From the NCBI GenBank assembly GCA_028819215.1, contig JAPPMG010000002.1, positions 111,007 through 175,006 on the forward strand: DNA of 64,000 nucleotides, given 5' to 3'. Below the pieces are notes generated by a model. It did not search any database and had not been told where the DNA came from. It worked only from the letters and a program-made list of their open reading frames with translations. Positions 58,204 through 64,000 of this stretch are shown here, piece by piece. The DNA comes from Bryobacterales bacterium. GTDB lineage: Bacteria; Acidobacteriota; Terriglobia; Bryobacterales; UBA6623. Each line of letters opens with the position of its first letter. Within the stretch, counting starts at the first letter, position 1. A program made the position numbers and the translations under genes.

Positions 58204-58538
58204 TGGCGGGCCTAGACTCCGCGAGATGAGAGATTGCTGATTATAGTCATGCGGGCCCGCGCGGGTTCGCCAATGGCAACGAGGTCGTCGAGACTACGAC
58301 GGCAGCGGGATGCGTCGTACGCCTCGTCGTCGCCAGCGGACTAAGGCGCGTGCTTCTCCCAGCTGGTTTTGGTTGTGGGGCGAATTGATAGTGGAATGCT
58401 CGATGTTAAATCCGTAATTATCAATGGGTTGGACTTGACTTATGGCGGTGAGGGTGTCTGCCACGAATTCGTTCCAATGAGTCTCATAGCGTCTAAAAAA
58501 TGGACATAACCCTATTTTCTCCAAATAGTTACCGTCGC

Positions 58539-58567: not shown

Positions 58568-58599
58568 CAAATTAAAAGGTGGACAGAAAGGGGGATACA

Positions 58600-59754
58600 A
58601 TGGCGAGACATGGCATCAAACTCACGGCGGCGTTCGTACGGAGGATCAAGACGCCGGGGAAGTACCGAGACGCTCACGGACTAATGCTTCGGGTAACATC
58701 ATCCGGGTCCAAGCAATGGACCCAGCGCATCGAATTCCAAGGTCGGCGCCGCGAGTTCGGATTGGGTGGATACCCGATCGTTTCGCTCGCTGAAGCGCGG
58801 GAGACTGCGCTCGACAATCGCAGGCTTGTCCGAGCGGGAGGCGACCCGTCAGCGGCGAGACGGCCGACCGTACCAACCTTCCAGGACGCCACGGCAAAGG
58901 TGATTGAGATTCACCGCCCGAACTGGAAGAACTCCAAACATGCGGCTCAATGGCAGACAACGCTCCAGCAGTACGCATTTCCTAGGCTCGGCAGGAGGCG
59001 CGTTGACCTTGTAAACACCTCGGACGTCATGGCGGTGCTCCTGCCCATCTGGAACGATAAGCACGAGACAGCCCGCCGCGTGCGCCAGCGGATTGGTGCC
59101 GTCATGCAGTGGGCTATGGCTCAGGGATACAGGCAGGACAATCCGGCGGGCGAAGCGATCATTGCAGCCCTGCCAAAGAATGGCGCTATCCACCGGCACC
59201 AAAAGGCACTGCGCCACACCGAAGTTGGAGGCGCGATTGCCGCAGTTCACCAGTCGGGCGCAACTCAGGCGGTCAAACTCGCCTTCGAGTTTCTGGTTCT
59301 GACCGCATGCCGATCAGGGGAGGTCCGTCTTGCTCGATGGGAAGAAGTCGATCTCGCGGCCCGTGTTTGGACGATTCCTGCGGAACGGATGAAGGCGAAG
59401 CGCGAGCACCGAGTGCCTCTGTCGGCTCGCTCTCTTCAGATCCTTTCGGAGGCGCGGGCGGTCACCGGCACTTCAGGTCTCGTTTTCCCGTCCCCAACCG
59501 GTCGAGAACTCTCCGATTCAACGTTGAGCAAACTGCTTCGCGAACTCGAAGTCCAAGCCGTGCCCCATGGGTTCCGGTCCAGCTTCCGGGATTGGGCGGC
59601 GGAATGTACGGATGCCCCGCATGCGGTGATGGAAGCAGCGCTCGCGCACACGATCAGGAACAGAGTGGAGGCGGCGTATGCTCGCTCCGACCTATTTGGC
59701 CGACGCCAGGATCTCATGCAACAGTGGGCGGACTATCTGGCATCGTCACATTGA
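58600..59754 (+). CDS. Tyrosine recombinase/integrase (P4-like, DUF4102 N-terminal domain)
   Basis: DAHGLMLRVTSSGSKQWTQRIEFQGRRREFGLGGYPIVSLAEARETALDNRRLVRAGGDPSAAR; catalytic elements TACRSGEVRLARWEEVD, PHGFRSSFRDWAAE, ALAHTIRNRVEAAYARSDLFGRR. ATG at 58600 (alternative 58579). Confidence 0.94.
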   Translation: MARHGIKLTAAFVRRIKTPGKYRDAHGLMLRVTSSGSKQWTQRIEFQGRRREFGLGGYPIVSLAEARETALDNRRLVRAGGDPSAARRPTVPTFQDATAKVIEIHRPNWKNSKHAAQWQTTLQQYAFPRLGRRRVDLVNTSDVMAVLLPIWNDKHETARRVRQRIGAVMQWAMAQGYRQDNPAGEAIIAALPKNGAIHRHQKALRHTEVGGAIAAVHQSGATQAVKLAFEFLVLTACRSGEVRLARWEEVDLAARVWTIPAERMKAKREHRVPLSARSLQILSEARAVTGTSGLVFPSPTGRELSDSTLSKLLRELEVQAVPHGFRSSFRDWAAECTDAPHAVMEAALAHTIRNRVEAAYARSDLFGRRQDLMQQWADYLASSH

Positions 59755-60560: not shown

Positions 60561-61019
60561 TCAGGGCTGGCCAATGCGCTGCCATTGCTCCTCGAACGCA
60601 TCCACGGCGTACTGCTTGAGCGGTAGCCAGTACGCCCGCTTTCCGCCGAGGTTGCGAATGGCCAAGGCCCGCACCTCGTGAGGCAGCAAGACGTACGCTC
60701 GCGGATGATCCGTGCCAAGCGAATTCACGATGATCCAGAAGTCCCCCATGATCTTCTCGATGTCCGTGCCTAGCGGAACGGTATCCGCCTTCGTCAGGCT
60801 CTTAACCTGGATAGTGCGCACAGTCTTGCCATCGACACTGAAGCAGACGACATCGATTCCACGGGTATTGCGCGCCGTCGGCATGACATTCCAGCCGAGC
60901 GCGGAGAGCCTGTAGCAGGCGTAGTACAGACCCGTATTCCCGACGATCCCTGTTGGCAGTTTCGTCACCGTCACCTCCCTCGGGTGCCACTCCCCCGCAA
61001 GTTCGCAGCGCGGCGTCAT
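60561..61019 (-). CDS. Small PD-(D/E)XK-like nuclease candidate
   Basis: GNTGLYYACYRLSALGWNVMPTARNTRGIDVVCFSVDGKTVRTIQVKSLTKAD: helix then GxD...QVK arrangement of Mrr/HJR-like PD-(D/E)XK folds. Start may be internal (GTG before TVTKLP). Confidence 0.5.
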   Translation of the reverse strand: MTPRCELAGEWHPREVTVTKLPTGIVGNTGLYYACYRLSALGWNVMPTARNTRGIDVVCFSVDGKTVRTIQVKSLTKADTVPLGTDIEKIMGDFWIIVNSLGTDHPRAYVLLPHEVRALAIRNLGGKRAYWLPLKQYAVDAFEEQWQRIGQP

Positions 61020-61551: not shown

Positions 61552-64000
61552 ATGGCAATTGAGCGCTGGCGTGATGAGGAAGGTGCAGGGAAGCGTCTGG
61601 CGGTGCATCGCTTCGCCGGCCTGCTGTCCATAGACCTTGAGGGCAGCGGGCGCATCGGGGCGATCGGGGCAATACGAACCGACCGCTCGACCGCATTTAC
61701 TTGGCGCGGATCTAGCGGTGGGTTGCGCGCGGCCCTTGCGGCACTCGATGAATTCGCCGAGGGAGCGCTTTATCTCGTCGGCCACAACATCATCGAACAC
61801 GACCTTGAACTCCTCTCCCGGCACGCGCCGGACCTGAAGCTGCTCGACCTGCCCGCGATCGACACGCTTTACCTGAGCCCGCTGGCGTTTCCGGAGAATC
61901 CTTACCATCGCCTCGTCAAGCAGTATCAGGAACCCGCGCTGACGAGAGTGCAGGTCAACGATCCCTTGCTGGACGCGGCGCTGACGCTCGTCCTCTTCGC
62001 CGATGTCGCCGATGCACTGCAATCGAAGGCCGCAGACCTGCTACTGGCTTGGCACGCACTGCTTGCCGCGGGCGTCAAGGGACACGCCTTTGACCATCTA
62101 TTCCGCACGATCCGTGGCACCGATGCGACGCCGCTTGTCGAGGATGCAATTCCGGCGATAATGAACCGCCTCGGGGAGCATGGGTGCCCCAACCGGGCGG
62201 CCAGCATTGCCCGTGACGCGCTCTTGCATCCTCTCGCGCTCACCTATTTGCTCGCGTGGCTGCCGACGACCGGAGGCAACTCCATCATCCCTCCTTATGT
62301 CGAGAAGCGGTTCGAGCCGGGCACTCTCGCAACGAAGCTCCGCGACACGCATTGCGGAGACCGAGGCTGCCTGTGGTGCTCGGAACGCCTGGATGCCGGG
62401 AAGGCGCTAAAGCGTTGGTTCGGTTTTTCGGACTTCCGGGAGCAGCCCCAGAGCCGACACGGCGAGAGCCTTCAGCGCTCAATCGTCGAGAAACACCTTG
62501 CCCGCGAGCACGTCCTCGGGATCCTTCCCACCGGCACCGGTAAGTCCCTTTGCTATCAGCTCCCGGCGCTGATGCGCTACGAGGCGACGGGGGCGATCAC
62601 CGTGGTGATTTCACCGCTGGTGGCGCTGATGGCCGACCAGATCGCGGCTATGCGGCGCCAGCGCATCACATGCGCCACCACCATCAACGGCCTGATCTCG
62701 ATGCCGGAACGGGCCGAGGCGCTTGCCCACATCCGTCTGGGGGACGCAGGGATCGTTCTGGTCGCACCCGAGCAGCTTCGCAACCGTTCCTTCAATACGG
62801 CGATCGCGGGACGCCGCATCGGCGCCTGGGTGGTAGACGAGGCGCACTGCCTCTCGAAGTGGGGACACGACTTCCGCCCCGACTACCGCTACGTCGCGCG
62901 CTACATCGCCGAGCATCACGGGAAGGACTCGGCGCCGATCCTGTGCCTCACCGCGACCGCAAAGCACGACGTCGTCGCAGACATCCGCCAGCATTTTGAG
63001 CAGACCATTCAGGCGCGGCTCGAAGTCATCGATGGCGGGGCGGAACGCCGGAACCTGGAATTCGTCGTCATGCCGACCTCGGCATCGCAGCGGATCGAGC
63101 ACATCCATCGGGCAGTCGAAGACGCGCTCGGGAGAGCGGGGTCGGGCGGTGCCATCGTCTACTGCACGACCAAGCGGAGCACCGAGGAGACGGCCCAGTC
63201 GCTCGCCGACAAAGGGCTGTCCGCCCAGCACTTTCACTCCGGCCTCTCGCCGGAGCGGAAACGCGAGATACAGCGCGGCTTCCACGAGGGCGACATCGAC
63301 GTGGTGGTCGCCACGAACGCGTTCGGCATGGGCATCGACAAGCCCGACGTTCGTGCGGTCGTGCATGCTGAGATGCCGGGTTCGCTCGAGAGCTACCTCC
63401 AAGAAGCCGGGCGGGCGGGAAGAGACGGCGCACGCGCTCATTGCTTGCTGCTCTTCGAGCCCGGGGACGCCGGGCAGCAGTTCTCTCTCACCGCGCGGTC
63501 GCGGCTGGAGCGGCGCGACATCCAGGCGGTGCTGCGTGCGATTCGCCGCCTCGACCAGCGCCGCGGGCGTCACCACGGCGACTCCGAGGATTCGGTCATC
63601 GCGACTGCGGGAGAAATCCTTCTCCAAGACGATGACGGCGACTTCGCGCGCGACAGCGCCACCGATGACGACAGAGTGCGCACCGCGATCGCGTGGCTCG
63701 AGGAATCGAAGCTCGCGCGGCGCGACGAAAACCACACTTCCGTCTTCCCCTCGTCTCTGCGCGTCCCCAACCTAGTCGCGGCGCGCGAACGCATAGAGGT
63801 GGAGGGCCGCAGGCGAGACATTCGAAGCGACGTGCGCAAGCAGATGTTGCGCGTCGTGCAAACCCTGACGCATGCGGAACCGGACATCGGCGTCTCCACC
63901 GACGAGTTGATGAACGAGTGCGGCTGCACGATGGGACAGCTTCGCAAGGTGTTCAGCACGCTCGAGGAGATCGGGGTCGCGTCGAACGACATGCGCATCA
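61552..64000 (+). CDS. DEDD 3'-5' exonuclease-like domain fused to RecQ-family ATP-dependent DNA helicase (partial, open at right edge)
   Basis: ATG at 61552 open for 816 codons to the window end. Exonuclease-like SIDLEG (DxE), GHNIIEHDLELL, NDPLLDAALTL; Cys motif CGDRGCLWC; helicase motifs GILPTGTGKSLCYQLP, VVDEAHCLSKWGHDFRPDYRY (RecQ type), TNAFGMGIDKPDVR, YLQEAGRAGRDG. Absent from the ORF track because no stop occurs in the window. Confidence 0.88.
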   Translation, partial: MAIERWRDEEGAGKRLAVHRFAGLLSIDLEGSGRIGAIGAIRTDRSTAFTWRGSSGGLRAALAALDEFAEGALYLVGHNIIEHDLELLSRHAPDLKLLDLPAIDTLYLSPLAFPENPYHRLVKQYQEPALTRVQVNDPLLDAALTLVLFADVADALQSKAADLLLAWHALLAAGVKGHAFDHLFRTIRGTDATPLVEDAIPAIMNRLGEHGCPNRAASIARDALLHPLALTYLLAWLPTTGGNSIIPPYVEKRFEPGTLATKLRDTHCGDRGCLWCSERLDAGKALKRWFGFSDFREQPQSRHGESLQRSIVEKHLAREHVLGILPTGTGKSLCYQLPALMRYEATGAITVVISPLVALMADQIAAMRRQRITCATTINGLISMPERAEALAHIRLGDAGIVLVAPEQLRNRSFNTAIAGRRIGAWVVDEAHCLSKWGHDFRPDYRYVARYIAEHHGKDSAPILCLTATAKHDVVADIRQHFEQTIQARLEVIDGGAERRNLEFVVMPTSASQRIEHIHRAVEDALGRAGSGGAIVYCTTKRSTEETAQSLADKGLSAQHFHSGLSPERKREIQRGFHEGDIDVVVATNAFGMGIDKPDVRAVVHAEMPGSLESYLQEAGRAGRDGARAHCLLLFEPGDAGQQFSLTARSRLERRDIQAVLRAIRRLDQRRGRHHGDSEDSVIATAGEILLQDDDGDFARDSATDDDRVRTAIAWLEESKLARRDENHTSVFPSSLRVPNLVAARERIEVEGRRRDIRSDVRKQMLRVVQTLTHAEPDIGVSTDELMNECGCTMGQLRKVFSTLEEIGVASNDMRI

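Follow-up and report, generated by a model that had tools for sequence, protein, structure and literature searches.

A gene in a Bryobacterales genome that had been read as an exonuclease-RecQ fusion is, judging from its complete sequence, an exonuclease-RecQ-UvrD fusion. The open reading frame continues past the end of the analyzed window (the whole 64,000-nucleotide stretch under study) with a UvrD-type motor, and what had been described is therefore the first half of a larger protein. The exonuclease-type domain and the RecQ motor of the sequence-only reading both stood, but the description was incomplete, as a UvrD/PcrA-type helicase lies beyond the window. We consider it slightly more probable than not that the product is a stand-alone, single-chain, dual-motor helicase-nuclease that spreads horizontally and acts on DNA ends, forks or branched DNA.

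One gene on two contigs

The frame was expected to run past the window, and it does so, with 816 stop-free codons up to the last position, which is also the end of contig C32. The last 55 bp of this contig are identical to the terminal 55 bp of contig C20, and the joined sequence holds one open reading frame of 1752 amino acids ending at joined coordinate 66810 (Table 1). The sequence past position 64000, which the earlier reading had called for, was thus obtained through C20 and revealed the C-terminal UvrD-type helicase. Because the window stops at a contig end and the link rests on a 55-bp overlap, the RecQ and UvrD parts could in principle be different genes falsely joined by the assembly. 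However, this chimera is ruled out by three lines of comparison. More than 60 homologues on other contigs have the same layout within one open reading frame (~1720 amino acids, range about 1,620 to 1,890), a contig of a congener (L137) carries the whole 1753-amino-acid gene and spans the junction at 88% nucleotide identity, and the left and right attachment sites of the island that carries the gene (see below) lie one on each contig, with outer flanks that are contiguous in two sister genomes. We therefore regard a false join as having practically no chance of being correct.

Table 1. Features of the exonuclease-RecQ-UvrD gene and its island (positions in the window unless a contig locus is given)
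Feature	Position	Strand	Basis
attL, exact 16-bp copy (TATGGCGGTGAGGGTG) of the tRNA-Ser(CGA) 3' end; left end of the island	58441..58456		Repeat and empty site
Tyrosine integrase (Arm-DNA-bind_3, Phage_int_M, Phage_integrase)	58579..59754	+	Pfam
Small 152-aa protein with PD-(D/E)XK-like motif (GIDVV...IQVKS)	60561..61019	-	Motif; island cargo, outside the conserved unit of the fusion
Exonuclease-RecQ-UvrD gene, 5' part (816/1752 codons)	61552..64000	+	Reading of the open reading frame; layout matches homologues
Predicted DEDD-type 3'-5' exonuclease domain, residues ~22-157	61615..62022	+	AlphaFold, Foldseek, HMM match to DinG, residue invariance
Helical module with four conserved Cys (C212, C268, C273, C276), residues ~158-280	62023..62391	+	Conservation
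RecQ-type SF2 helicase core, residues ~281-650	62392..63501	+	Pfam, NCBIfam, PDB sequence search, invariance
Start of linker with winged-helix-like sequence (TDELMNECGCTMGQLRKVFSTLEEIG)	63502..64000	+	No RQC, RecQ-Zn or HRDC; model of homologue L035
Remainder of the gene on contig C20	L008:18230-15366	-	55-bp overlap; to joined 66810
Canonical RecQ (RQC, HRDC, Zn)	L008:13501-15315 (joined 66861-68675)		Starts ~50 bp past the fusion stop

A predicted exonuclease domain with asparagine for histidine

The motifs cited in the sequence-only reading (SIDLE, GHNIIEHDLELL, CGDRGCLWC and DEAHCLSKWGHDFRP) are all found where it had placed them. Its N-terminal DEDD-type region was to fall if structure prediction gave no RNase H-like exonuclease fold. 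The AlphaFold model of the domain (pLDDT 89.2, pTM 0.87, from an alignment of 77 homologues) has the strand-helix order of precisely this fold, so that the N-terminus is predicted to be an RNase H-like DEDD exonuclease. The best Foldseek match in the PDB, and the only one with an E value below 0.001, was Staphylococcus aureus DinG (8.7e-4). A TREX1 homologue, DnaQ domains and ExoX came next, with weaker E values but still high probability. The N-terminus of the window protein alone had no Pfam match; a profile HMM of the domain again found DinG as its best PDB sequence (E 0.001). Together with the predicted fold, the D-x-E motif and the aspartates of motifs II and III correspond to the DEDD 3'-5' exonuclease superfamily, and none of these acidic residues (D28, E30, D84 and D141) varies in either sequence set (77/77 and 84/84). 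The position of the usual DEDDh histidine is occupied by N136, likewise asparagine in 77/77 and 84/84 sequences. The alignment to DinG places it at the histidine, i.e., motif III reads N-x4-D (N136, D141) instead of the H-x4-D, with its general-base histidine, of the DEDDh subgroup.

Since an invariant asparagine replaces the general base, nuclease activity is not certain, and it may be slow, altered or lost. If lost, the domain would bind 3' ends and the dual helicase would remodel forks or strip proteins or recombination intermediates. Such a role would fit the two motors, as members of the UvrD and RecQ families are commonly engaged in anti-recombination and fork processing. A branch of pseudo-exonucleases is already known among DinG-like helicases (PMC11981726). 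However, loss of activity should have cost the domain some of its metal-binding residues, and all four are kept in every sequence despite identities of 30 to 88%, which makes this alternative improbable. Downstream of the domain, C268, C273 and C276 are invariant in 77/77 homologues and C212 is found in 76/77, and the module that holds them is probably a zinc site.

Two helicase motors of different superfamilies

The full RecQ motor that had been described was recovered by Pfam (DEAD and Helicase_C) and NCBIfam (recQ, E 2.5e-102) at residues ~281 to 650. The core has motifs 0 to VI, including the Walker A GTGKS, DEAHC, the RecQ loop SKWGHDFRPDY and motif VI QEAGRAGRD; it scores 301 bits with TIGR00614 (cut-off, 219.8), and K331, D429, E430, R621 and R624 are invariant in 84/84 sequences. 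However, it is not a canonical bacterial RecQ. The score with TIGR01389 was 343 for a cut-off of 640, and RecQ-Zn, RQC and HRDC (PF16124, PF09382 and PF00570) gave no match in the fusion, whereas all three are present in the canonical RecQ encoded next to it. The linker that follows the core appears, from its sequence, to be winged-helix-like.

Residues ~1105 to 1590 form a complete SF1 motor of the UvrD/PcrA type by Pfam, PDB sequence and Foldseek matches. PF00580 (140.7 bits, E 9.7e-41) and PF13361 (43.9 bits) are both above their cut-offs, UvrD and PcrA head the 26 matches of the PDB sequence search, and the best structural matches of the model are UvrD/PcrA/Rep, then AdnAB, RecBCD, GajB and AddAB. 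Both the N- and C-terminal helicase domains and motifs I to VI of the SF1A UvrD/PcrA/Rep motors are present, with AGPGSGKT, DEYQD, GDDDQNIY, NYRSS and MTRAR conserved. A C-terminal beta-rich domain comes after the motor in the model of homologue L035. Across the 84 full-length homologues, the catalytic positions tested were invariant, save for two UvrD arginines at which two or three sequences have gaps. Selection therefore acts on the metal site and on both motors. The domain order is constant across phyla. No Pfam, NCBIfam or PADLOC model spans the whole protein, and none of the solved structures among the PDB matches joins exonuclease, RecQ and UvrD parts.

The fusion gene within a tRNA-Ser island

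The probable integrative island of the sequence-only reading is proven. It is a 21.4-kb element with a tyrosine integrase and att repeats (16 bp exact, 50 bp for the looser repeat) at the 3' end of tRNA-Ser(CGA), located on the other contig at joined 79853-79942, and in two sister genomes the island is absent and the left flank meets the right flank directly at the tRNA-Ser. Besides the fusion and the canonical RecQ, it carries two related tyrosine integrases, the PD-(D/E)XK-like protein, a type ISP restriction enzyme and a clan AA aspartic protease. A search for a third att copy near the second integrase, which would have pointed to two islands in tandem, gave none. The 152-amino-acid PD-(D/E)XK-like protein gave no Pfam or NCBIfam match and a weak one to a PHROG of unknown function. 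The canonical RecQ is the only RQC-type RecQ of the genome, and most genus mates checked are without one.

Neither of these neighbors appears to be a partner of the fusion. In two congeners, nucleotide homology (88%) is limited to 61473-66810, i.e., the fusion gene plus the 79 bp before it, in different surroundings (one of the two matches ends at 66634, at a contig end). What is shared is thus a self-contained unit, found next to different neighbors. An operon with the downstream canonical RecQ was rejected as a general feature, since the two congeners share the fusion alone and no RecQ cluster recurs. A partnership with the PD-(D/E)XK protein, which had been taken as a contextual clue, was discarded for the same sharing of the fusion alone and for the lack of any recurrent partner.

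Two other genes of this genome deserve mention. The type ISP restriction-modification gene (L008:3664-8127) contains at least 22 copies of the 5-bp repeat GTCGT inside its frame (L008:3937-4146, joined ~78030-78240), interrupted by an N gap, and the rest of its C-terminal specificity domain seems to be in another frame, so this enzyme is likely phase variable. Outside the island, contig C50 of the same genome, G000 (L010, ~28794-29353 of C50, minus strand), holds a frame of ~1,540 amino acids that appears to combine an N-terminal DNA topoisomerase III with a RecQ bearing an HRDC-like end, another single-chain RecQ fusion that recalls the TopoIII-RecQ partnership.

Distribution and inheritance

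With each species represented by a single genome, a scan gave at least 571 relatives in many bacterial phyla. The 80 of them that were retained belong to Pseudomonadota, Acidobacteriota, Chloroflexota, Nitrospirota, Nitrospinota, Latescibacterota, Gemmatimonadota, Poribacteria, Binatota, Actinomycetota, Cyanobacteriota and others. Twenty-one plasmid records matched, the annotated copies being named RecQ helicases, and a distant full-length homologue resides on a Bacteroides plasmid. No match to the fusion was found in 50,697 phage records. Five IMG/VR contigs did match, one with the copy at a prophage edge (L114:445-15085), where the homologue is located between prophage genes (gpA terminase and two ParB-methylase fusions) and host ABC transporter genes. 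The sequence-only reading would have been refuted by homologues mainly in core, non-mobile contexts, and here the outcome was mixed: islands and plasmids are represented, and so are ordinary chromosomal contexts.

At finer scales, the presence of the gene is patchy (6 of the 11 genomes of the genus, 9 of 299 in a sample of the class and 4 of 396 in a sample of the phylum). A FastTree phylogeny (without bootstrap) puts the window copy in a divergent clade together with one Acidobacteriota contig of its own genus and one contig each of Pseudomonadota and Vicinamibacteraceae; some phyla, such as Latescibacterota and most Chloroflexota, group together. This pattern indicates that the gene has probably been inherited both vertically and horizontally, although binning errors in metagenome-assembled genomes could mimic some of the transfers. 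In one congener (G300), three matches to the N-terminal profile were located on three different contigs (C211, C283 and C249), so several versions can coexist in one genome.

Gene neighborhood and a possible role in defense

An anti-phage or anti-plasmid function had been proposed from the context of the gene. In a single-gene system of this kind, carried on islands, plasmids and prophage edges, the motors would unwind invading DNA (phage, plasmid or replicating) and the exonuclease would destroy it. The patchy distribution would be in agreement with this, as would the type ISP restriction enzyme in the same tRNA-Ser island, the plasmid copies found beside a type I restriction-modification operon (one), 9 kb from cas6 (one) or near toxin-antitoxin genes (others), and the L114 copy between prophage terminase/methylase genes and host genes. 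Within the protein, the DpdF and PsyrT models give scores in the RecQ part, and GajB (Gabija) does so in the UvrD part.

However, the contextual argument did not hold in general. Around ~79 homologues (with mechanical gene calls), there was no recurrent neighbor family or defense partner, and the Pfam families nearby were ordinary and varied. Using PADLOC at E values of ≤1e-20, the comparison for enrichment near defense genes that had been suggested gave no local excess, with ~6 distinct systems among the 145 nearest neighbors (setting aside fragments of frameshifted copies of the fusion itself) and ~8 among 144 more distant genes. It should be noted that these are counts of families among the matches listed, not exact protein numbers, and that the control genes come from the same loci, so a broad effect of the islands could be missed. 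The matches to DpdF, PsyrT and GajB are confined to the shared helicase cores (DpdF, 223.7 for an NCBIfam cut-off of 550), where members of Dpd, PsyrTA and Gabija would match over the whole length and be accompanied by partner genes. No PADLOC or NCBIfam model covers the protein, and the phage records had zero matches. Nevertheless, single-gene systems need no partner, so defense is still a live rival, although we consider an anti-phage function less likely than not as the main explanation.

A different association was noticed after the fact, in 3 of the ~79 loci. In two unrelated lineages (L036:3399-15313 and L052:4041-14946), AddA/AddB-like genes directly abut the fusion on the same strand, at 24 and 37 bp, respectively, and in L091, AddA is four genes away. 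This abutment, with the same reservation of having been noticed a posteriori, favors DNA-end processing. The fusion as a replacement for RecBCD or AddAB is not supported, since AddAB-like proteins persist in the host genomes. All 16 genomes checked encode PDDEXK_1 proteins, and nearly all have neighboring pairs of AddAB-like size whether the fusion is present or not (the fragmented G065 had one weak match only).

Relatives and comparison with known enzymes

Proteins of ~1,600 to 1,790 amino acids deposited as "RecQ family ATP-dependent DNA helicase" have the same full-length architecture and 30 to 49% identity over the whole length, i.e., they are the same family, and nothing essential differs in examples such as those of Thiothrix (WP_207249163.1), Allochromatium (WP_223295316.1) and Bacteroides (WP_022275194.1). 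Neither the exonuclease nor the UvrD part can be guessed from the database name. Although widespread, the family has apparently had no function described for it. In the open-access literature (subscription journals and bioRxiv being outside the scope of the search), no description of an exonuclease-RecQ-UvrD protein was found; the only mention was cluster F.14 of a 2014 classification of RNase H-like proteins, where PF13482 members are recorded in "RecQ ATP-dependent DNA helicases" and T7 DNA polymerases (PMC3985635). F.14 may be this family, although the entry is a single line that includes neither a UvrD motor nor a function, and PF13482 is not matched by the fusion sequences.

The likeness to eukaryotic WRN, which had been proposed in outline only, goes indeed no further than an N-terminal DEDD-superfamily exonuclease followed by a RecQ motor. 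The WRN exonuclease is PF01612 (DEDDy), while that of the fusion resembles DinG/DnaQ and is DEDDh-like with asparagine; PF01612, RQC and HRDC have no match in the fusion, a UvrD motor is added, and the sequence search matches WRN in the helicase only (residues 269 to 654). ExoDinG, a precedent for a bacterial DEDDh-helicase fusion (PMC11981726) and the nearest solved structure to the exonuclease domain, also has an N-terminal DEDD exonuclease but differs in its single, XPD-type motor and retained histidine. AdnAB, AddAB and RecBCD combine UvrD-type motors with a nuclease in DNA-end processing, and the UvrD part matches their structures. However, they are heteromeric, their nucleases are of the PD-(D/E)XK type and all their motors belong to SF1, whereas the fusion is one chain with a predicted DEDD nuclease domain, one SF2 and one SF1 motor, and no PD-(D/E)XK domain by Pfam. 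DpdF, PsyrT and GajB have RecQ or UvrD motor cores in common with it, but not their other domains or partner genes.

Proposed mode of action

RecQ and UvrD/PcrA helicases both translocate 3' to 5' along single-stranded DNA. It would be mechanistically unusual for one chain to contain two motors that are expected to share a polarity, an arrangement that is AdnAB-like and not RecBCD-like. In the dual-motor helicase-nuclease that we favor, the protein would load on a 3' tail or fork, and the two motors, if they keep the directionality of their families, would unwind DNA at ends, forks or branched intermediates, while the DEDD domain, provided that it is active, would trim the 3' strand as it becomes exposed, and DNA structure would be bound or read by the Cys4 and winged-helix-like modules. 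The protein would then operate in the manner of AdnAB and AddAB, although it belongs to neither family. Substrate and physiological role are here inferred from the parts. With no recurrent partner, and with congeners that share this gene alone, the fusion seems to act by itself, and it would work alongside AddAB-type enzymes without replacing them. The gene spreads horizontally, and its product would serve as accessory DNA-processing equipment for recombination, repair, or the degradation of broken or foreign DNA. More tentatively, and with somewhat less than even confidence, RecQ (SF2), UvrD (SF1) and a DEDD exonuclease with asparagine in place of the catalytic histidine may constitute a widespread one-chain class, a further design beside RecBCD, AddAB and AdnAB for DNA-end processing or the degradation of invading DNA.

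Hundreds of bacterial species in many phyla thus carry a ~190-kDa fusion whose annotation stops at RecQ helicase. An active protein of this kind would be a compact one-polypeptide counterpart of the multisubunit machines that process DNA ends, with SF2 and SF1 motors in one chain, and it would test whether a DEDD exonuclease works with asparagine for histidine. Since the gene moves alone, the fusion is also a convenient candidate to work with, be it for a part in accessory recombination and repair or for one in defense.
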